Shown here piece after piece: positions 21,684-31,432 of a stretch of 32,466 nt of DNA. The first letter of the stretch is position 1, and each line of letters opens with the position of its first letter. The position numbers and the translations under genes were made by a program. The notes below the pieces were generated by a model that was given only the letters and a program-made list of their open reading frames with translations, was not told the DNA's origin and searched no databases. Origin of the DNA: a virus. The stretch spans positions 1 to 32,466 of the IMG/VR virus record IMGVR_UViG_3300044800_000301, one strand, 5' to 3'.

Positions 21684-24600
21684 GTGGGCTACCAGCGTAA
21701 AGAGCTTCAAATTCTCGGCGGATCGTTCAACCTGAATCCGCCGGGCGACAAGATTCCCAAGACGGATTACCTACTGGCACAGAACTGGCGCGTGGACCGG
21801 GTGGGGTCGCTGGTGTCGCGTTTCGGGTACCCGCAGAAATTCTCGATCGCCGGCGCCGGGGTGGCGCACTCCGCTTTTGTGCACGGCGGTATCAACGGCG
21901 ACTACTATGTGGGCGCCGGCTCGGCGGTGTATTGGAACTTCAACGCGTCTGCGATCGCCACCGGACTCGATGGCGCCCGCGTGGGCTTCGCCGGCATGAA
22001 CGGGTGGGTGTGGTTCATGAACCGCGCCAAGCAGGGGCGGCACATTGCCAGCCTGGGCGCCGGGGCGACCTCCCAAAGCTGGAACTTGGCGGCGCCCGGC
22101 GGCTCGCCTACGGCCACGGCGGCCTCGACACCCACGGCGTCGGCGTCGGTCACCTACACCTATTCAGCGCAAAGCTATGGGTACATCCACTACCTGAGCA
22201 TCGCGGGCGTCGTCTACCAGTTTCCCGACATCGGGTACTCCTCGGCGCAGGTGGCGCAGTTGATCGCCTGGTTCGCCAACGCGGACCCCAACGCCTCGGT
22301 CAGTTACGGCGCCGGGGGCAGCACCGTCGTCATTACGCCGATCCCCGCCAATACCCTGATTCAAGTCAGCGGCTCAGACTCCAACGCCAATACCAGCCTG
22401 GCCACCGGGTCGGTGACCTCACTGCCCAACGGGACCTACACATTCTATGTGACCTTCGAAAGCGCGGACGAGACCTTAGAGTCGAACGGCAGTCCGGTAT
22501 CAAATCCGGTCCTGCTGGCCAGCCAATCGGTCACCCTGACCAACATTCCCATCAGCTCGGATTCGCGGGTAACCAAGCGGAATCTCTACGCCATCGGCGG
22601 AACGCTCGAACAGGCGTATCTGGTGGGAACCGTGCCCGACAACGCCACCACAAGCTGGACGCTGTCGTTTTGTGATCTCTCGGTGACCAACGGCGGCACG
22701 GTCATGCCGACCACGAACGATCCGCCGCCAGCCTGCTCGGGAATGGCTGGGCCGCACTTCAGCCGGCTGTTCGCCTGGGCTACGGTTGCCAATCCCAACC
22801 GGCTGTTCTACACCGAACCGGACTTGCCCCAATATTGGCCCGGCTCGGGAGATCCGGCGATCGGCAACTGGGTGGATGTCGGCGCCGAGGGCGAAGCCAT
22901 TATCTGGTGCACGGTCCATAGCAACACGCTCATCATCTACAAGGAGCACTCCATCTGGATGCTGGTCGGCGACCCCGATACGGGTTACCTCCAAATGGTG
23001 AACGACACCATTGGATTATCGGGAGCTTCCGCGGTGGTGGGCGCCGGCGCGGTGGATTACTTCGTGGGGTCGAACGGGCTCTACCGCTTCAATCTCGACC
23101 GGTTCGAAGACATTACCGGCCCCGTCCGGCCGCTCTTCCAGGCGGGCTTGGTCAAGGGGGCGCTGACGCAGCCGGGAAGCATCCTGCCGGGCGCGGTGTT
23201 CCCTTACGACTTGGCGCTGGGCTACGCCATGGGAAAGCTCTACATCACCTATCAGGAAGCCGTGAGCCAGTTCACCTCGCGCTGTCTGCTGGTGTACCAC
23301 GAGGAGAGCGGCCGCTGGTTCTACCACCGCTCGACGAGCACACTCTCCAACGGGTTCTACGGCTTCGTGTTCGACGGCGTCGAGATGGTGGGCCTCACCC
23401 GATCGATCGCCAGCGCCGCGATCGGCCTGAACCTCGACGATTTCCGCGGGGCGACGACGGTGGACGCCGGAAGCCTCGATTGGATCGGCTGCACGTACCA
23501 GTCGCACTACGAGGACGCGGGGCTGCCCGACAATCAGAAAAACTGGCTGGAGATAGTCATCGATTACGAATTCGCGGGCGACACCGCGACGGTGAGTGTG
23601 GGTTACGACAACGGCACTACCGCGCTGGCGAGCATCGGAACGATCACCGGGACAGTCCGCCAGCAAACCAGTTTCCGGCTGGGTACCGATGGCGTGAAGG
23701 CCAAGAATATCTCGGTAATGATCAGCGCGCCCGCGGCCAATCGGCTGATTCTGCACAACGTCTACCTGTACTACTACGAGGAGGCCCGCCTGGCGCTGGC
23801 GGCCAGCACGCTGCCCACCGATCTGGGGGTGGGCAAGGTCAAGCAGTGCAAGGAGCTGCAACTCGACATCGACCCCTCCAACGGCCCGGTCGATGTCAAC
23901 ATCTACTCCGATCTGCCGGACAACCAACTCGCCGTGCGGCAGACGCCAACGGTGGCGCAGGGCACCGGCCGGGCGATTATGAAGTTCCCGTTCGCCGTCA
24001 CCGAGGGCTATCTCTGGCGCGTGGCGTTGCGTGCCAGCGAAACTTTCCGGCTGTATGCCGCGCGACTCCTGATGCGGGTAGTGGGCGTGTACGTGGAGGC
24101 GTACGAAGCCGCAGCGGGGTTTGTGTGGGACTCGATGGAGCAGAGCTTCGAATCGGGCATCACCAAAGTGCCGCGCCTCTATCAGATCGCGCTGGCGGCC
24201 ATGCCTATCAAGCGCGTGCGCGAAATCAGCCTGGAGATGGACACGTTCGGTAGCGCGGTGAACGTGGCGCTGTGGTCGGACCTGCCAGGTAACGCGCAGG
24301 CCGTGCGATTCGTCAAGTCTGTAATTACGGCCAACGGGCGCCGGTTTGTGCGTATTCCGCTACCCGGAGGAACCGACGCGCCGATTGAAGGGCGCATGTT
24401 CCGGCTGCTGCTCTCGGGGATCTCGAAGTTCATCCTCTACGGAGCCGCGCTCGAGATTCTAGCGGTGGGCGTCTACATCGAAGCCGAAGAGGGCCGGGGC
24501 GGCGCGGTGTACGATTCCCGTGAGCTCGACTTTGGCACGCCGGCGGTAAAGGAGTGCCGCGAGCTGGAACTGGACATCGAGACGGTGCCCGCGTACACTC

Positions 24601-26909
24601 CGCCGCCTTTCGCCGTATCCAAGGTAGTGGCGGAGGTGCTGAGCGACATCGCCTGGGTGGGCGGGGTGGAGCAGCCGGGAGCGCTGGCCAACCGGGTGAC
24701 AAAGGGCATCGCCACCAATGGGCGGCAAAAGGTAATGCTGCCGCTCACTGTGAGCGCGGCGGCGGAGCAGTTCATCGAGGGGCGTCTGCTGCGGCTGATC
24801 CTGAGCGGCACCGACGCGTTGCGGTTGTACGGCGCGCGGATGCGGGTACGGCCGTTCGGGTGTTTCCTGGATGCCAGCGAAACCATTCAGGGCGCGCTGT
24901 GGGACTCGACGGATCTGGATCTGGGGACGCCGGCAGTGAAGCAGATTCGCGAGCTGGAACTGGACCTCTGGGCCTATGGCGCGTTCACTCTCACGGCGTA
25001 CACGGACCTGCCGGACAATGCGATGGCATCGCGGGTCACCTACCAGGGCCCGGCAACGGCCGGCCGCACAAAAGTCATGGTGCCGCTGCCCCAGGGGTCG
25101 GTGCCGGACGCATACACGCTGGGGCGGCTGCTGCGGGCCACGATTACCAGCGCGGCGACCATCAAACTCTACGGCGCGCGCGTCCATCTTCGCGCAGTCG
25201 GCTGCTACGTGGAGGCGTACGAAGCGGCCGGCGGGGCGGTGTGGGATTCGAGCGAGCAGGATCTGGGCACGCAAGCGGTGAAGCAACTGCGCGAGCTCGA
25301 GCTGGAGATCAGCGCGACGGGGGCCTACACGGTGACCCTGTACACCGATCTGCCAGGCAACGCCATGGCCGAGCGCGCGGTGAAGACGCAGGCGGCGACC
25401 TCCGGCCGCACGACGGTTCAGATCGCGCTGCCGCAGGGCGGTGTGCCGGACAACTATCTTTACGGGCGCCTGCTCCGGATCGTGGTCGGCAGTGAGAACG
25501 CCTTTCAGCTCTACGGCGGCCGGGTCCGGGCGCGAGCCCTGGGCTGCTACATCGAGGCGTACGAAGCGGCCGGCGGGGCGGTGTGGGATTCGAGCGAGCA
25601 GGATCTGGGCACGCAAGCGGTGAAGCAACTGCGCGAGCTCGAGCTGGAGATCAGCGCGACGGGGGCCTACACGGTGACCCTGTACACCGATCTGCCAGGC
25701 AACGCCATGGCCGAGCGCGCGGTGAAGGTGCAGGCGGCGACCTCCGGGCGCACGACGGTTCAGATCCCGCTGCCGCAGGGCGGTGTGCCGGACAACTATC
25801 TTTACGGGCGCCTGGTGCGGGTCACGATATCGAGCGCGGCGGCGTTTGCGCTCTACGGCGCGCGCATTCACTTCCGGGCCATCGGAGTGTACGCCGAAAG
25901 CTACGAAGCCGCCCGCGGGGCGGTGTGGGATTCAATGGCCCAGGATCTGGGCAATCCGAACGACAAGTATTTCGACCAACTGCGGTTCGAGATGGATTCG
26001 GACGGCGCCGCCGTCGTGGACGTCTACACCGATCTGCCGGGCGAATCGATGAGAAACCGCTTGAGGGTGGCTCTGACGGCCGGCCCTACTTCCCGGCACT
26101 GGGCCACCGCGCCGCTGCCAGCGGGAGCAAACGCGGCATTCTCGGTGGAAGGGCGCTCGATCCGCGCGGTGGTGTCCAGCGCCTACGGCTTCCGGCTGTA
26201 CCGGGCGCAGGTCCGGAGCTGCCGGATCGGCCGGTACCTGGCGGCCACGCCGCCCTCCGGGTTGCAGGACGGCCTCAACACTCTGGAGTTCGACTTCCAA
26301 AGCGGGCGGGTGAAGGTACACAAGAAAGTCGAGATCGACGTGGCGGCCGATGGCGAGCTCGCCATCGCGCTCTACACTACGCAGGGCGGCGCGCTCTCCG
26401 AAGTGTGGACGACGACGATCTCGACACCCAACGGCCGCAAAGTGTTCCGGCTGCCGCTGCCGCCCGGGATACGCGGAAGCCTGCTGCGCATCTCAATGGC
26501 GAGCGCGGCGGCGGCGCGGGTCTTTCGCCTGCGCACCTGGAGCCGGGAAGTCAACCGGGCGGACGCGCGCTGGGACTGGGACGAGTACCCTCTGGAATCG
26601 AGCGATGCGCTCCCGGCATGGAGCGATCTGCCGATGCCGGCGACGGCCGCGGAGTTTACATGGGCGGACCTGCCGGTGGCCAAGACGCCCAGCGAGTTCG
26701 CGTGGAGCGATCTGCCGATTCCGAAAACGCCGGCTGAATTCAGTTGGGCGGACCTGCCGGTAGAGCCGACCAAGCCGGAATGGCAATGGGCGCCGTGCCC
26801 GGTGAATCCCACCGAACCGCAATGGTTCTGGGCGAAAGTGTTGAGCGTGGAGGAAACGCCGGAAACCTGGACGTGGGTGGACGTGCCGTTCGAGGTGACC
26901 GGAGCGTGA
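21684..26909 (+). CDS. Giant tail-stabilisation-like protein with tandem domains
   Basis: A 1741-aa protein from GTG 21684. Residues about 1-690 have a propeller-like, beta-rich head resembling the tail or packaged-DNA stabilisation proteins of podoviruses: LQILGGSFNLNPPGDKIPKT, RNLYAIGGTLEQAYLVGTV, FSRLFAWATVANPNRLFYTE, IIYKEHSIWMLVGDPDTGYL. An Ala/Thr-rich region with a small domain lies at about 140-240. Residues about 700-1625 hold eight tandem domains of 108-130 residues (starting near 700, 801, 929, 1059, 1173, 1287, 1401 and 1516). Residues 1646-1741 are a 14-residue Trp repeat. The gene follows the three connector-like genes. The repeats could form a rod or fibre at the tail tip. The stabilisation role is inferred. 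Confidence 0.75.
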   Translation: MGYQRKELQILGGSFNLNPPGDKIPKTDYLLAQNWRVDRVGSLVSRFGYPQKFSIAGAGVAHSAFVHGGINGDYYVGAGSAVYWNFNASAIATGLDGARVGFAGMNGWVWFMNRAKQGRHIASLGAGATSQSWNLAAPGGSPTATAASTPTASASVTYTYSAQSYGYIHYLSIAGVVYQFPDIGYSSAQVAQLIAWFANADPNASVSYGAGGSTVVITPIPANTLIQVSGSDSNANTSLATGSVTSLPNGTYTFYVTFESADETLESNGSPVSNPVLLASQSVTLTNIPISSDSRVTKRNLYAIGGTLEQAYLVGTVPDNATTSWTLSFCDLSVTNGGTVMPTTNDPPPACSGMAGPHFSRLFAWATVANPNRLFYTEPDLPQYWPGSGDPAIGNWVDVGAEGEAIIWCTVHSNTLIIYKEHSIWMLVGDPDTGYLQMVNDTIGLSGASAVVGAGAVDYFVGSNGLYRFNLDRFEDITGPVRPLFQAGLVKGALTQPGSILPGAVFPYDLALGYAMGKLYITYQEAVSQFTSRCLLVYHEESGRWFYHRSTSTLSNGFYGFVFDGVEMVGLTRSIASAAIGLNLDDFRGATTVDAGSLDWIGCTYQSHYEDAGLPDNQKNWLEIVIDYEFAGDTATVSVGYDNGTTALASIGTITGTVRQQTSFRLGTDGVKAKNISVMISAPAANRLILHNVYLYYYEEARLALAASTLPTDLGVGKVKQCKELQLDIDPSNGPVDVNIYSDLPDNQLAVRQTPTVAQGTGRAIMKFPFAVTEGYLWRVALRASETFRLYAARLLMRVVGVYVEAYEAAAGFVWDSMEQSFESGITKVPRLYQIALAAMPIKRVREISLEMDTFGSAVNVALWSDLPGNAQAVRFVKSVITANGRRFVRIPLPGGTDAPIEGRMFRLLLSGISKFILYGAALEILAVGVYIEAEEGRGGAVYDSRELDFGTPAVKECRELELDIETVPAYTPPPFAVSKVVAEVLSDIAWVGGVEQPGALANRVTKGIATNGRQKVMLPLTVSAAAEQFIEGRLLRLILSGTDALRLYGARMRVRPFGCFLDASETIQGALWDSTDLDLGTPAVKQIRELELDLWAYGAFTLTAYTDLPDNAMASRVTYQGPATAGRTKVMVPLPQGSVPDAYTLGRLLRATITSAATIKLYGARVHLRAVGCYVEAYEAAGGAVWDSSEQDLGTQAVKQLRELELEISATGAYTVTLYTDLPGNAMAERAVKTQAATSGRTTVQIALPQGGVPDNYLYGRLLRIVVGSENAFQLYGGRVRARALGCYIEAYEAAGGAVWDSSEQDLGTQAVKQLRELELEISATGAYTVTLYTDLPGNAMAERAVKVQAATSGRTTVQIPLPQGGVPDNYLYGRLVRVTISSAAAFALYGARIHFRAIGVYAESYEAARGAVWDSMAQDLGNPNDKYFDQLRFEMDSDGAAVVDVYTDLPGESMRNRLRVALTAGPTSRHWATAPLPAGANAAFSVEGRSIRAVVSSAYGFRLYRAQVRSCRIGRYLAATPPSGLQDGLNTLEFDFQSGRVKVHKKVEIDVAADGELAIALYTTQGGALSEVWTTTISTPNGRKVFRLPLPPGIRGSLLRISMASAAAARVFRLRTWSREVNRADARWDWDEYPLESSDALPAWSDLPMPATAAEFTWADLPVAKTPSEFAWSDLPIPKTPAEFSWADLPVEPTKPEWQWAPCPVNPTEPQWFWAKVLSVEETPETWTWVDVPFEVTGA
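23784..26558 (+). repeat. Eight tandem domain repeats in the giant tail protein
   Basis: Each unit has a GxYxEAYEAAxGAVWDS opening, an ExxxLELE strand, an xYTDLPxNAMAxR segment, and a PLPQGxVPDxYxxGRLxR close, then xLYGARxxxRA. Lengths in order are about 100, 128, 130, 114, 114, 114, 115 and 108 residues. Units five and six are nearly identical in DNA. nt 25213-25471 and 25555-25813 differ at four positions by my reading, with a period of 342 nt. Hence that pair duplicated recently or is kept alike by gene conversion. The first and last units are the most divergent. Confidence 0.8.
26619..26906 (+). repeat. 14-residue Trp tandem repeat, 42-nt period
   Basis: Seven consecutive units begin with Trp codons at 26619, 26661, 26703, 26745, 26787, 26829 and 26874. 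The first four keep W(A/S)DLP(M/V/I)xxTxxE(F/W)x. The last are degenerate (WAPCP, WAKVL, WVDVP). All have spacing 42 nt except the last (45 nt). They form the C-terminus of the giant tail protein. The regular Trp/Pro/acidic composition suggests a docking tail, or a rod of short strands. Confidence 0.85.
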
Positions 26910-27604
26910 GCGACCAGATTCCGCAGATTCCGCCGGGTGTGGAGGGCCGCGACCTGGTCGCGGTTATGAATGACCGTATCCGGCGCATCAACCTGGCGCT
27001 GGGCGGCGGCGCACCAGCCGGGTCAACCAGCGCCGCGATCGCCTACGGTACGCGAAATACGCGGCTGCAACGGCCGATCTCCGACTATGGGGATGGTGCC
27101 CTGTTCGTGGAAACCGATCAGGGCGCCATCTTCCAGAAGCAAAACGGCGCCTGGGTGGGCATCGGAGCCGCGGGGGCGGTGGCGTATGCCAGCGGGAATT
27201 ACACCCTCACCACTGCCTACGACAGTATACCGGGGGCGACCTTGACCTTGGCGCGCGCGGGCCGGTACCTGATCAGAGGTTGTTTCGACATGCTCGGCAG
27301 CGGCGCCAACGACGCCACTTGGGCAGCCTTCGGGCAACTGATAGCCGGGCCTTCTGGCAACGAGGTAGTGCAGGGGCCAGCTAACGCCATTACGCTCCTG
27401 GCCCCTCTGGTCATCGTTGTTGCCGGAACCGGAGTGACGGGCTCGCCGGTGGTGATCGGTCTTCGAGCCATGGTCACTCAGCAGTGGTCTTACACCGCGA
27501 CCGCGAACGACGTTGTGACGTTGCAAGCCAAGAAAAACGGGGGGACCGGAGGCAGCTTCGCGGCGGGCGCGACTAGCATCGAGGCGCTCTGGCTGGGACC
27601 GTAG
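26906..27604 (+). CDS. Tail-type hypothetical protein
   Basis: A 232-aa protein starting at GTG 26906, overlapping the previous stop (GTGA), with GGAG just upstream. It begins SDQIPQIPPGVEGRDLVAVM followed by NDRIRRINLALGGG, then has YGDGALFVETDQGAIFQKQN, a motif type common in phage tail proteins, and a beta-rich C-terminal half (YTLTTAYDSIPGATLTLARA, AITLLAPLVIVVAG). It is probably a minor tail or tail-tip protein. A frameshifted copy of a similar C-terminus follows directly after its stop. Confidence 0.65.
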   Translation: MSDQIPQIPPGVEGRDLVAVMNDRIRRINLALGGGAPAGSTSAAIAYGTRNTRLQRPISDYGDGALFVETDQGAIFQKQNGAWVGIGAAGAVAYASGNYTLTTAYDSIPGATLTLARAGRYLIRGCFDMLGSGANDATWAAFGQLIAGPSGNEVVQGPANAITLLAPLVIVVAGTGVTGSPVVIGLRAMVTQQWSYTATANDVVTLQAKKNGGTGGSFAAGATSIEALWLGP

Positions 27605-27711
27605 TCCCGGCGGCGCTGGGCGCAACGCTTACGCTGAAGGTGCTGGCGGGGAGCACGCCGGTGGGGACGACGTTTCCGGGGGCGGACCTGACGGTGATGG
27701 TGAGGTTTTAA
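27604..27711 (+). pseudogene. Remnant of a tail-protein C-terminus
   Basis: After the stop of the preceding gene, the next frame reads VPAALGATLTLKVLAGSTPV followed by a TTFPGADLTVMVRF-like end and a stop at 27709-27711. That is a typical end of a phage beta-rich tail protein, and resembles the end of the intact gene (VVTLQAKKNGGTGGSFAAGA...). It has no own start. It is best read as the 3' end of a replaced C-terminal module or of a broken paralogue, left at the edge of an inserted cassette. Confidence 0.55.
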
Positions 27712-28583
27712 CCGTGGATCCCGGCGTCATTTTCGCCGATGGTGGACCCAATTGCCGCGAGCAGGGCCTGCTTTTTCAACGCGGGCATGCGTTCGAGTTT
27801 GCCCGTCCAACTTGCGATCTGGCGCTTCAGATCCTGCCGCTGGTGCGCGGTCTCGCCCAAGTAGCGATAGTCGTGCAGGGCGACGGGGGGATCGAAGTTG
27901 AACCAGAGCCATTCGGTGGCCATCCCGCCGCGAGTCATGGCTTCGAAGTGGATGGAGTTCCACCGACGCAAGACGTCGGCGTACATCTCCGACCAGTAGC
28001 CGGAGATCATCACGCGGCAGGGCAGATCGCCGATGCTGGCCAGCAACTCGGCGTGTTGCTCGTCGCTGAAGTTATGCCGGTAGCGCGGGCGGCTCGCGAG
28101 GGTTTCCAGCAGGTAGGGCGGATCGCAGTAGATCAAGTCGTCGGGAGCGAAGGGATAGGACTGTAAGAAGGTGAGGGCGTCGCCGCGGAGGAAGCGGAAG
28201 CGCGGAGGCTCACCATCACCGGTCGGCGGATCGACCGAGCGGCGCCGGCGAAGATCGGCGGGGACCCCGTCGTCGGATCCGCCTGCTGCGGCCGAGGTCG
28301 GCGGATTCGACGGGCCTCGAGGCGCGGCAGGTCTGCCGATGTCGCCGGCGGAATCGGCTTTTTCGCCGTCGCGGACCGCGAGAGCGTTTTCGCCGATGCG
28401 CGATCGCCAATCGGCGATTACACCGGCGTCGAGGTCCACGCCGATGTTGTAGGGGGCGGGGCGCTTCAGGCGCATGACGGCGCCCCCGCCCAGGAAAGGC
28501 TCGATGTAGGTGTGGTGGGGCGGCATGAGGTTTATCAGCCGGTGGTAGACGCCGGGACCGGATTTTCCGCCAGGGTAGTCCAT
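27708..28583 (-). CDS. Adenine-specific DNA methyltransferase (D12 class)
   Basis: A 291-aa N6-adenine methyltransferase of the Dam/D12 class. The opening MDYPGGKSGPGVYHRL is the SAM-associated start motif, the FLGGGAV segment at 30-36 is the glycine-rich SAM motif, and DPPY at 154-157 is the catalytic motif. Later segments (GYWSEMYADVLRRWN, ATEWLWFNF) match the family. No restriction enzyme is nearby, so it is an orphan methylase, perhaps protecting phage DNA or altering expression. Residues about 61-126 are a low-complexity Gly/Pro/Arg/Ala stretch not expected in the family. The ATG at 28583 has no Shine-Dalgarno; the longer frame is rejected. Its stop overlaps the plus-strand remnant. Confidence 0.87.
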   Translation of the reverse strand: MDYPGGKSGPGVYHRLINLMPPHHTYIEPFLGGGAVMRLKRPAPYNIGVDLDAGVIADWRSRIGENALAVRDGEKADSAGDIGRPAAPRGPSNPPTSAAAGGSDDGVPADLRRRRSVDPPTGDGEPPRFRFLRGDALTFLQSYPFAPDDLIYCDPPYLLETLASRPRYRHNFSDEQHAELLASIGDLPCRVMISGYWSEMYADVLRRWNSIHFEAMTRGGMATEWLWFNFDPPVALHDYRYLGETAHQRQDLKRQIASWTGKLERMPALKKQALLAAIGSTIGENDAGIHG

Positions 28584-28590
28584 ACCAGGG

Positions 28591-28610
28591 AGTATCGGCG
28601 AAATCGCCGA
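28591..28610 (-). promoter_or_regulatory. Methylase promoter with operator-like dyad
   Basis: Reading leftward, GATACT at 28596-28591 lies 7 nt before the methylase ATG. Just upstream is a perfect 7-bp dyad, TCGGCGA-TT-TCGCCGA on the minus strand (28595-28610), overlapping the -10 region. Transcription from such a -10 would begin at or near the start codon, so the mRNA may be leaderless. The dyad is a plausible repressor site. No clear -35 was seen. Confidence 0.45.
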
Positions 28611-28661
28611 CGAAGTCAAGCGGCATGACCAAGCTCCAGCCCGATTTGGTGTAACTGGCGA

Positions 28662-28844
28662 ATGTCTCTGCAAAGGAGATACCCTATATCCGTCGAACTG
28701 ATCGAACCGTTTCCCGAGATGTATTGGCCGCTGGCCTGGGCGTGGCTGGACGCGGCGCGCGGCCAGGTGGCGGACGACTTCACGCCCAAGACGGCCGGGG
28801 AATTTGTCGAAGCAAAGGGGACCCAATTCGATGCACGTCTTTAA
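28662..28844 (+). pseudogene. Truncated copy of the GNAT-like gene 5' end
   Basis: The frame reads VELIEPFPEMYWPLAWAWLD followed by AARGQVADDFTPKTAGEFVE. This matches the first 42 residues of the gene at 29139 (DLVEPFPEMYWPLAWAWLDS...) with several differences. Similarity in DNA spans about 28690-28812 and stops after GAATTTGTCGAA. The rest of the frame is unrelated and overlaps the next gene. AAAGGAG precedes an in-frame ATA at the expected start; ATG 28662 is further upstream. It is a 5' fragment left by a duplication or insertion event. Confidence 0.75.
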
Positions 28845-29142
28845 CCGCCCCCATCATACCCTCTCGCTGGAGCCAGGATGTGGGTTTCTCGGAGGCCTGT
28901 GGCCCACCGGGTTGTTTAGGCTGAGGTTTTTGTGGCGGCCGGCACCAGCTGAGTACAGCGTGGCCATGGGCGACACTGATCGGGATATCTTCCGACTGGC
29001 TTGCCATCTTGGCTCACGGCGGGGAGTGCTGGCGTTATGGAGGTACAACATCGGCGGCACCGTGCGTCGCGGAGTACATCTGGCCTGGCAGCGGCGCGAT
29101 CGTGAGGCGAAACTGCTCGTGGTGCGATTCTACAAGCTATGA
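28831..29142 (+). CDS. Small hypothetical protein in the moron island
   Basis: A 103-aa ORF from ATG 28831, with AAGGGG about 11 nt upstream. Its stop overlaps the next start (ATGA). It begins MHVFNRPHHTLSLEPGCGFL and has a basic C-terminal half (FRLACHLGSRRGVLALWRYN, then RREAKLLVVRFYKL-like). It is less GC-rich than its neighbours, and is placed between the truncated and the full copy of the GNAT-like gene. No function is recognised. It may be cargo of the duplicated segment. Confidence 0.5.
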   Translation: MHVFNRPHHTLSLEPGCGFLGGLWPTGLFRLRFLWRPAPAEYSVAMGDTDRDIFRLACHLGSRRGVLALWRYNIGGTVRRGVHLAWQRRDREAKLLVVRFYKL

Positions 29143-29981
29143 TCGATCTCGTTGAACCGTTCCCGGAGATGTACTGGCCGCTCGCCTGGGCGTGGCTCGA
29201 CAGCGCGCGCGCGCAGGTGGCCGACGACTTCACGCCCAAGACGGCCGCGGAATTTGTCGAATCATACAGTAGGCGATTCGGGGCGGCCCGGACGTTCGGA
29301 GTGCTGAAGGACGGGCAACTCGGGGGGGTAATCGTATTCGAGCCAGCGAGCGAGGTAGTAGCTGTCCTGCACGTGCTGTTCGCGCGCCGGCTGTGGGGAC
29401 TCGCGACCACGGCGGACGCCATCCTGCGGGCGTGCGGGCGGATGTTCGAGAGCACGCCGGTTATCAAGATTCTGGCGCTCATCCCGGAGTACAACCGCCT
29501 TGCCGTTCGCGGGGCGGCGCGGTACGGGACGGTCGAAGGCGTGTTGCGCCATCAGACGTTGCGGGGCGGGCGGCCGGTGAACGCGGTAGCGGTGGGACTG
29601 ACCAAGGAGGAATTCGGTGGGATTAGGGATCGGCGGGTCGACGGGCGGGACGAGCACTTCGAGCACGGCCAACGCCAGCAACACGCCGACGTTCAGCCCG
29701 TGGCAGACGCAACTCCAGTCGATGCTATCGGGAGTGATGAGCACGCTGCTGCCCTCGGTGGCGTCGGGGGGGATCTCGCCCAACGTGCAGGCGACGGAGA
29801 CGGCCAGCGCGGACCAAATCAACAAGGGCTACTCGGGGATCGGCGACCGGATGAACAAATTTCTGGCGGCGCGCGGGTTCGGACAAAGCGGAAAGACGGG
29901 GCAGGCGGCGCTGCAAACCGAACTGGGAAGACAGGGCGCGCTGGCGGGAAACGCAAGCAACGCCGCGGGCCAGCAGCTTAA
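29139..29981 (+). CDS. GNAT-like acetyltransferase, extended C-terminus
   Basis: A 280-aa frame. Residues 1-160 look like a phage N-acetyltransferase-type protein: an N-terminal EPFPEMYWPLAWAWLD segment, a beta pair (FGVLKDGQLGGVIVFEP), the RLWGLATTADAILRACGRMF helix, LIPEYNRLAVRGAARYGTVE, and GLTKEEFG as the normal end for such proteins. From about 160 on, the frame simply runs out of phase through the next gene for 365 nt and becomes Arg/Gly-rich. The natural stop seems to have been lost, or the overlap is tolerated. The start is fixed by the ATGA junction at 29139. Confidence 0.65.
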   Translation: MIDLVEPFPEMYWPLAWAWLDSARAQVADDFTPKTAAEFVESYSRRFGAARTFGVLKDGQLGGVIVFEPASEVVAVLHVLFARRLWGLATTADAILRACGRMFESTPVIKILALIPEYNRLAVRGAARYGTVEGVLRHQTLRGGRPVNAVAVGLTKEEFGGIRDRRVDGRDEHFEHGQRQQHADVQPVADATPVDAIGSDEHAAALGGVGGDLAQRAGDGDGQRGPNQQGLLGDRRPDEQISGGARVRTKRKDGAGGAANRTGKTGRAGGKRKQRRGPAA

Positions 29982-30132
29982 CCTCAATACCACGTACCTG
30001 TCGGATGCGCTAAACGCGGCATTCAACACGCCGGGGTCGAATTCGAGCGGGACGACCTCGGGAAGCGGGTCGCAGTGGGGCTTCGGCGCCGGGGCTTCGG
30101 CGGACTTCTCGAAACTGCTGGGGCTGGGTTAG
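29617..30132 (+). CDS. Probable internal virion/ejection protein, small
   Basis: A 171-aa protein from GTG 29617, with a very strong AAGGAGG 6-7 nt upstream. It is rich in Gly, Ser, Ala, Asn and Thr with few charges, and includes helical patches (SGIGDRMNKFLAARGFGQSG, GNASNAAGQQLNLNTTYLSD). In P22-like phages three internal proteins (gp7, gp20, gp16) are ejected with DNA; this small one may correspond to the first. The match is by order and composition only. Confidence 0.6.
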   Translation: MGLGIGGSTGGTSTSSTANASNTPTFSPWQTQLQSMLSGVMSTLLPSVASGGISPNVQATETASADQINKGYSGIGDRMNKFLAARGFGQSGKTGQAALQTELGRQGALAGNASNAAGQQLNLNTTYLSDALNAAFNTPGSNSSGTTSGSGSQWGFGAGASADFSKLLGLG

Positions 30133-30133
30133 C

Positions 30134-31432
30134 ATGGCGCAATTCGCACCCATGATGTCGCCGGAGAACCCCGCGTTGGGGGCGGCGTCGAGCGCGGCCA
30201 GCGGGGCCATGCAATTGGCCAGGTCGCTGCGGTCGGCGGCGCAGCAGCAGCAGCAAGTCCAGGCGCAGAAAGACAAGCAGTCCATGGCGGAGCAGCTCGA
30301 CATGGCGCGGCTGGTGAATGAGGGCTGGCAGGTCTACGAGCCGTCGAGCAACGTGCAGGGCGAGCCGGGCAAACTCAAGACGCGCGACTACACGCCGCCG
30401 CCGGCCAACATGGTGACTCTGCCGACCATCGGCAAGCAACTGTACCGGCCGGACCAGACGGCACAGCAAAAGCAGGCTCAGCAGCGGCAGGGCTTCACGG
30501 ACTTGCGCACAATGCTCGACCAGGGCGCCGAGCCTTACAACGGCGGGAACGTCAATCAGGACCGGGGGACGCCGCGGGCGCGCATGGACGCGGGGGGCAA
30601 CGTCACCGATACCGGCGAGTTCGGAGTGAACACGCCGCCCGATCCGGGGCGGCTCATCACGCCGCCGGGCGGCTATCAGCGGTATTATATGCCCCCGAAG
30701 TCGGACCTGCTGGCGGATAGGCTGCACACGGAAGCGGCGGCGAAGGAGCCAACCGCGCCGACCGTGGACACCGAGCACTTCTCGGCGCCGGTGTCGATCG
30801 ATCACCGGACGGGTAAAGTCACGGCACTGACTCTGCCCGATGGCGTGACTCACGACGACAAGACGCCGAAGTACACCTACAACCATTTCACGGATGACGC
30901 GGGGCGCGTGAACGTGACGCGGATCGGCGCGGACGGCGTGCCGCAGAAGTGGGATGGGAACACGTGGGCGGCGCTCGAAGGGAACGCGGCGTTGGGGCCG
31001 AAGCGGAAAGATCCGGACGCGGCGAAGCCGGAGAAACAAGCCACGCCAGCCCAGTTGAACGCGGTCGAGGGGAAGAAACGGGCGGGCCTGGTGCGCGCGG
31101 AAGTGGCGTACAAGAAGGCCATGAAAGACGCGACGGTGGGCGGCTACACCGATCCGGACGCGGCCAAGGCGGCGGGAGACGCGCTGCTGAAGGGCAAGCA
31201 GGACGCGCAGGACGCTTACGAGCAGGCGCTTACGGAGTACGGCAAGCCGGTGGAGCACGTGGACTACGCGAGCCAGCCTGAGGCGGCGCCGGCGAAAGCG
31301 GCGACGGCGGCCGCGGGCGGTGGAAGGGGAACCGCGGGCGGCGGCGGTCGTGTGCGGGTGAAGCTGCCGGACGGGCGCACGGGAACCGTCGACGCGGGCG
31401 AGTTCGACGCCAAGACGATGACAAAGCTGTGA
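30134..31432 (+). CDS. Probable internal virion/ejection protein, medium
   Basis: A 432-aa protein starting 2 nt after the previous stop. Gln-rich helix at about 35-58 (SAAQQQQQVQAQKDKQSMAE), Pro/Gly/Asp-rich middle, and charged helices near 310-365 (KKRAGLVRAEVAYKKAMKD, AYEQALTEYGKPVEH). An Ala/Gly-rich linker leads to a terminal VRVKLPDGRTGTVDAGEFDA motif, seen at ends of several phage internal proteins. It may be the second ejection protein. No enzymatic motif is visible. Confidence 0.6.
   Translation: MAQFAPMMSPENPALGAASSAASGAMQLARSLRSAAQQQQQVQAQKDKQSMAEQLDMARLVNEGWQVYEPSSNVQGEPGKLKTRDYTPPPANMVTLPTIGKQLYRPDQTAQQKQAQQRQGFTDLRTMLDQGAEPYNGGNVNQDRGTPRARMDAGGNVTDTGEFGVNTPPDPGRLITPPGGYQRYYMPPKSDLLADRLHTEAAAKEPTAPTVDTEHFSAPVSIDHRTGKVTALTLPDGVTHDDKTPKYTYNHFTDDAGRVNVTRIGADGVPQKWDGNTWAALEGNAALGPKRKDPDAAKPEKQATPAQLNAVEGKKRAGLVRAEVAYKKAMKDATVGGYTDPDAAKAAGDALLKGKQDAQDAYEQALTEYGKPVEHVDYASQPEAAPAKAATAAAGGGRGTAGGGGRVRVKLPDGRTGTVDAGEFDAKTMTKL

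Follow-up and report, generated by a model that had tools for sequence, protein, structure and literature searches.

Gene remnants border an orphan adenine methyltransferase gene in the tail-fibre module of a probable acidobacterial phage

The phage and its tail-fibre locus

The window, meaning the whole stretch of DNA analysed here, is the complete IMG/VR virus record IMGVR_UViG_3300044800_000301 (32,466 bases). A tyrosine-recombinase-type integrase lies at its start, and terminase, portal-like, capsid and tail genes are also present. A similarity search of the DNA against known phages and plasmids returned no match; at the protein level, scans picked up relatives both in viral contigs and in contigs from genomes of Bryobacterales and other Acidobacteriota. 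From these relationships the window appears to be a (pro)phage with its closest relatives in Acidobacteriota (Bryobacterales) genomes, and since the relatives are found in such contigs, its host is probably an acidobacterium.

Thirty related loci were compared, some of which represent one phage twice. The gene order common to the relatives is tail, fibre, a GNAT-like gene and a small structural gene, named E29617; the position of the GNAT-like gene is conserved across all 30. In the window an intact tail-fibre-like gene (26906-27604, plus strand, 232 aa, GTG start, ending ALWLGP) follows the tail gene. Its N-terminus is conserved in relatives, and the whole protein shows 39% identity to the fibre of locus L023. 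The intact GNAT-like gene (29139-29616, plus strand), with an acetyltransferase domain (phrog_4470, 1.7e-5), begins only after a further 1,534 nt. Several relatives have 0-17 nt at this place: the fibre of L023 ends ALWIGP and the GNAT start lies 17 nt further, L013 has a 17-nt gap as well, and L021 has none, its fibre stop abutting the GNAT start. A sequence-only reading had described an island here with broken genes at its borders, and such an island is present with every element that it listed: the fibre end, an out-of-frame remnant, a minus-strand methylase, a truncated GNAT copy and a 103-aa open reading frame (ORF). Relatives that lack the island do show a clean junction, and an identical arrangement with intact genes throughout was not found among the 30 loci.

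The methylase gene

The methylase gene (27708-28583, minus strand, 291 aa), whose start had to be moved to the ATG at 28583, scores 37.2 bits against PF02086 (gathering cut-off 22), carries the catalytic DPPY motif within IYCDPPYLL and matches phrog_56 at 3e-28. Domain score and motif together place it among D12-class N6-adenine methyltransferases. Against the NCBIfam Dam model (TIGR00571) it reaches 33.6 bits with a cut-off of 114.85, and it is therefore not Dam proper. No nuclease partner gene was seen, and the methylase is classed as an orphan; its probable role is modification of phage or host DNA, for instance as protection from restriction. The base composition of the gene is not unusual and resembles that of the rest of the phage. 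Within the coding region, 28210-28420 is a variable, repeat-rich insert of CGGCGGATTCGAC-like units, the length of which differs between relatives and which occurs as tandem copies in L043.

Scanning with the methylase alignment yielded 55 loci. The gene is absent from most relatives of the window and its presence is sporadic; copies 64-72% identical stand at other junctions of related phages. Four other junctions are occupied, with the gene antiparallel every time: in L013 it separates the p20743 gene from the tail gene, in L051 the tail gene from the fibre gene, in L043 and L055 the fibre gene from a large receptor-binding-type gene, and in L045 that large gene from a distant GNAT-like gene. 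Similarity of the methylases is incongruent with that of the tail genes: the window and L055 share 64% in the tail gene and 49% in the methylase, and the methylase of L045 is 72% identical to that of the window. On the independent contig L043 (1200-3000), a second fibre C-terminal fragment (46 nt, 80%) flanks the methylase on one side and a 66-nt, 92% repeat of the start of the large gene flanks it on the other, an island that parallels the bracketed structure in the window.

The methylase promoter and its dyad

Upstream of the methylase lies a sigma70-type promoter sequence, TTGACT-N17-GATACT (28591-28619, minus strand), the sole promoter-like site found in 26800-30200. TTGAC occurs upstream of the methylase start in 23 of 40 methylase sequences, the window included, against 2.1 expected. 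The gene thus seems to possess a promoter of its own, which would work without reliance on the late operon. As the -10 element ends 7 nt before the ATG, a leaderless transcript is probable. No terminator-like site was found on the minus strand in 26800-30200.

The spacer between -35 and -10 contains the dyad TCGGCG-N4-CGCCGA, which (also as TCGCCG-N4-CGGCGA) is present upstream of about 21 methylase relatives (L043-L097). In 22 of the 23 TTGAC-bearing sequences the six spacer pairs are complementary in 96 of 132 cells, compared with 9-52 after one arm is shifted along the other; at the fourth pair, 11 of these sequences have C-G and 7 have G-C. The dyad is thus conserved through paired changes across phages and travels with the methylase gene, and it has the appearance of a symmetric, operator-like element. 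That the methylase binds its own dyad is offered as a hypothesis only; a literature search for autoregulated phage orphan methylases gave nothing specific in the library covered.

The old fibre end and a possible stub of the large gene

The remnant at 27607-27711 (plus strand) is out of frame with the preceding fibre gene and reads FPGADLTVMVRF followed by a stop codon; its reading frame is closed upstream at 27574, and its own stop overlaps that of the methylase. It is the C-terminus of a different fibre, matching the intact fibres of L055 and L043 with E values of 4e-9 and 1e-6 (two-sequence blastp). The final residues before the stop are FPGSDLTVMVRF in L055 and FPGSDLTLLVQF in L043 (in longer form GLTFPGSDLTVMVRF or GLTFPGSDLTLLVQF), and GTTFPGADLTVMVRF in the window. 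The same C-terminus is found in L045, L051, L100 and L102, where it precedes the large gene. L055 and L043 belong to the same phage group as the window (tail gene 60-64% identical overall), and both have the order fibre, antiparallel methylase, large receptor-binding-type gene, followed in L055 by GNAT and then E29617. The remnant adjoins the methylase stop as the intact fibre does in L055; in L043 that place is taken by a second fibre C-terminal fragment, ending FPGSDLTILVQA.

On the other side of the methylase, the large gene of L043 and L055 starts just outside the methylase -35 element with MSETIYKLQPDRTM and MVSSVSEAISKLQPDRML (KLQPDRTM and KLQPDRML, respectively). At the same spot the window has ATGACCAAGCTCCAGCCCGATTTGGTGTAA, which reads MTKLQPDLV and a stop codon (28625-28654, plus strand). 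Local alignments of this segment against shuffles give p 0.004-0.03 for most relatives and are not significant for L100 and L111; 28625-28654 is possibly a nine-codon stub of the start of the large gene, short and modestly significant. Because the fibre remnant, the neighbours of the methylase and the stub match the order in L055 and L043, 27605-28815 is best read as the leftover of an older stretch composed of fibre, methylase, (large gene) and GNAT.

The two GNAT ends

An ungapped repeat search of the region gave one outstanding pair, 28693-28830 with 29143-29280 (83%), which exceeds by far any other repeat and represents the two GNAT copies whose alignment the earlier reading had proposed. 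The truncated copy (28686-28815, plus strand) is 86% identical to 29142-29261 over 120 nt, the first 40 codons, the two reading in frame VELIEPFPEMYWPLAWAWLDAARGQVADDFTPKTAGEFVE and IDLVEPFPEMYWPLAWAWLDSARAQVADDFTPKTAAEFVE. No second 5' copy was found in any of the 30 related loci. In the truncated copy the start position is occupied by ATA, where the aligned codon in L014, L018 and L019 is ATG; an SD-like AAAGGAGA lies seven bases upstream, and the copy ends at about codon 42. With neither an intact start codon nor the full domain, it does not qualify as a functional gene.

Of the differences between the copies, 11 of 17 fall at third codon positions (p 0.008). The estimates are dS 0.47, dN 0.09 and dN/dS about 0.2, with wide error as they rest on about 120 nt; for the intact copy compared with its counterpart in phage L018, dN is 0.14 and dS 0.45. 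On these values each copy seems to have been a working gene while the two drifted apart, over roughly the time that separates two different phages. Since this divergence is biased to synonymous sites and reaches the between-phage level, the two ends were probably joined by recombination and not duplicated in place.

The motif TTTGTCGAA (28803 and 29253), at which the truncated copy stops, lies within GNAT and its codons are nearly identical across distant relatives (TTT in 8 of 11, GTC in 11 of 11, GAA in 10 of 11). It was considered as a repeated phage promoter and rejected, its occurrences within the window being limited to the two GNAT copies. The GNAT frame stays open beyond 29616 up to 29981 (29617-29981), into the following gene, and such an opening of 100-133 codons is shared by 14 of the 15 loci examined. 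Against synonymous shuffles the p values of individual loci run from 0.007 to 0.4, so that a long overlapping coding region downstream of GNAT is no more than possible.

The 103-aa ORF

The 103-aa ORF (28831-29142, plus strand) is preceded by an SD-like AAAGGGGA and its stop forms an ATGA overlap with the GNAT start. Its codon score is -0.12, compared with 0.12-0.23 for the fibre, GNAT and other pieces scored in their coding frames, and its GC3 is 0.68 compared with 0.73-0.87 in genes with known relatives. Searches of the protein against phages, plasmids, viral contigs, Pfam, PHROGs, PADLOC and NCBIfam returned nothing, and 200 genomes of the order plus the relatives gave weak matches in other frames or at chance level. 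With neither homologues nor phage-like codon usage, it is by these measures an ORFan with poor coding signal, and may be a young gene, a foreign gene or a product of chance. Derivation of the region from the end of the large gene, or from the gap before GNAT in L100, L101 and L111, was rejected for want of similarity. A transposon or homing-endonuclease origin of the island was likewise set aside: no such family was matched by the island ORFs and no short target duplication was seen. The earlier reading named the 103-aa ORF as the cargo. By the comparisons above, the demonstrable, moron-like mobile cargo of the island is instead the methylase; the 103-aa ORF has no relative found and a weak coding signal.

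Proposed history of the junction

We consider it fairly probable that the region is a mosaic junction in the tail-fibre module, arising from two or more staggered crossovers (illegitimate or short-homology) that took place between related phages. In an ancestor or donor the order would have been a fibre of the FPGADLTVMVRF type, an antiparallel methylase, the large receptor-binding-type gene and GNAT. A new fibre with an L023-like C-terminus would then have been joined upstream, leaving behind the last 35 codons of the old fibre, and the large gene would have been deleted, perhaps down to the nine-codon stub. In a second crossover the old GNAT would have been cut after about codon 42, and the DNA attached there would have brought in the 103-aa ORF together with the intact GNAT of a related phage; a staggered crossover between two related genomes directly explains the divergence of the GNAT ends. 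The methylase would have remained as moron-like cargo, its own promoter freeing its expression from the late operon. That recombination inserted or rearranged DNA here, leaving remnants of genes at the edges, had been proposed from the sequence alone and is supported by the clean junctions of relatives and by the remnant fibre type standing beside the same methylase in L055 and L043; the earlier interpretation as a whole is partly supported.

The less likely part held that insertion of a 103-aa cassette duplicated the 5' segment of GNAT on the spot, so that the duplicates bracket the cargo. The ORF does lie exactly between the copies, with its SD-like sequence and the ATGA overlap, but a copy truncated at birth would lose its third-position bias, and the observed dS and dN/dS are those expected if both copies diverged as functional genes in different phages, probably in separate genomes; as the ORF is also poor cargo, having no relative found and a weak coding signal, we regard such a duplication as very unlikely. 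An assembly chimera, with false partial duplications arising because sequences of two related phages from the same sample were merged in silico or through a chimeric read, has a similarly slim chance. The junctions rest on one contig from one metagenomic sample, no second contig with the same junctions was found among the records searched, from which very near ones may be missing, and related phages with different arrangements exist; yet neither junction falls at a shared exact repeat, the longest exact GNAT match (25 nt) being internal and away from the joint, the independent L043 contig has a bracketed methylase of the same kind, and the ATA start of the truncated copy suggests real decay.

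It is also conceivable, though quite unlikely, that both the truncated copy and the 103-aa ORF have a function. The copy would be translated as a short leader (ATG 28662 to stop 28844), to which translation of the 103-aa ORF and then of GNAT would be coupled. The leader overlaps the start of the 103-aa ORF by 14 nt, the stop of the latter overlaps the GNAT start, and the intact GNAT has no SD sequence upstream. However, no relative shares this arrangement, codon usage of the 103-aa ORF is poor, and GNAT directly follows the fibre gene in several relatives. The mosaic junction accordingly remains our preferred reading. A more speculative extension, to which we attach a low probability, is that methylase, promoter and dyad form a self-contained, self-regulated mobile cassette, whose integration would move it between tail-module junctions and leave flanking genes copied in part, the pattern of the window and of L043. 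The operator of the cassette would then be bound by the methylase or by a factor specific to that enzyme, because the fourth pair of the dyad (C-G or G-C) largely tracks the methylase clade.

Comparison with known systems

Phage morons are additional genes that stand between two neighbours contiguous in relatives, and they have their own promoter and usually a terminator (PMC3029335, PMC2147016). The window methylase likewise lies between genes that abut in relatives, is antiparallel, has a conserved promoter sequence and is sporadic and mobile, being absent from most relatives. It differs in its phage-like composition, in the broken ends of neighbouring genes that accompany it and in the terminator, which is typical of morons though not universal; as none was found, we term the gene only moron-like. 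With phage orphan D12-class adenine methyltransferases (phrog_56, PF02086) it shares the domain, the DPPY motif, the phage context and the lack of a visible nuclease partner, and it differs in its score below the Dam cut-off and in a promoter dyad conserved across phages. Such an orphan methylase has settled at several junctions of one module in phages with apparent Acidobacteriota hosts, and since the symmetric promoter element is conserved and changes in matched pairs, it provides a testable case for an autoregulated moron.

Exchange of tail-fibre C-termini and modular exchange of receptor-binding proteins are known, for example from tailspike modularity (PMC10408124). The window fibre resembles these in its conserved N-terminus, exchanged C-terminus and hypervariable tail-GNAT region, but unlike them it keeps the old C-terminus downstream, so that the event is seen before clean-up. 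Mosaic recombination in finished phage genomes is usually visible only as the clean result; here the intermediate can still be read in the former fibre end, in what may be a stub of the gene that followed and in the cut-off end of a conserved gene, each with intact versions in relatives. The island is ordinary phage mosaicism caught midway, and what is unexpected is the symmetric, operator-like element moving with the methylase.

The tail protein upstream of the fibre (21684-26909) is 1741 aa long, compared with lengths of about 1390-1510 aa for several relatives. Near-identical domains (GGAVWDSSEQDLGTQAVKQLRELELEISATGAYTVTLYTDLPGNAMAERAVK) recur within it, and it has therefore probably been enlarged by internal duplication.
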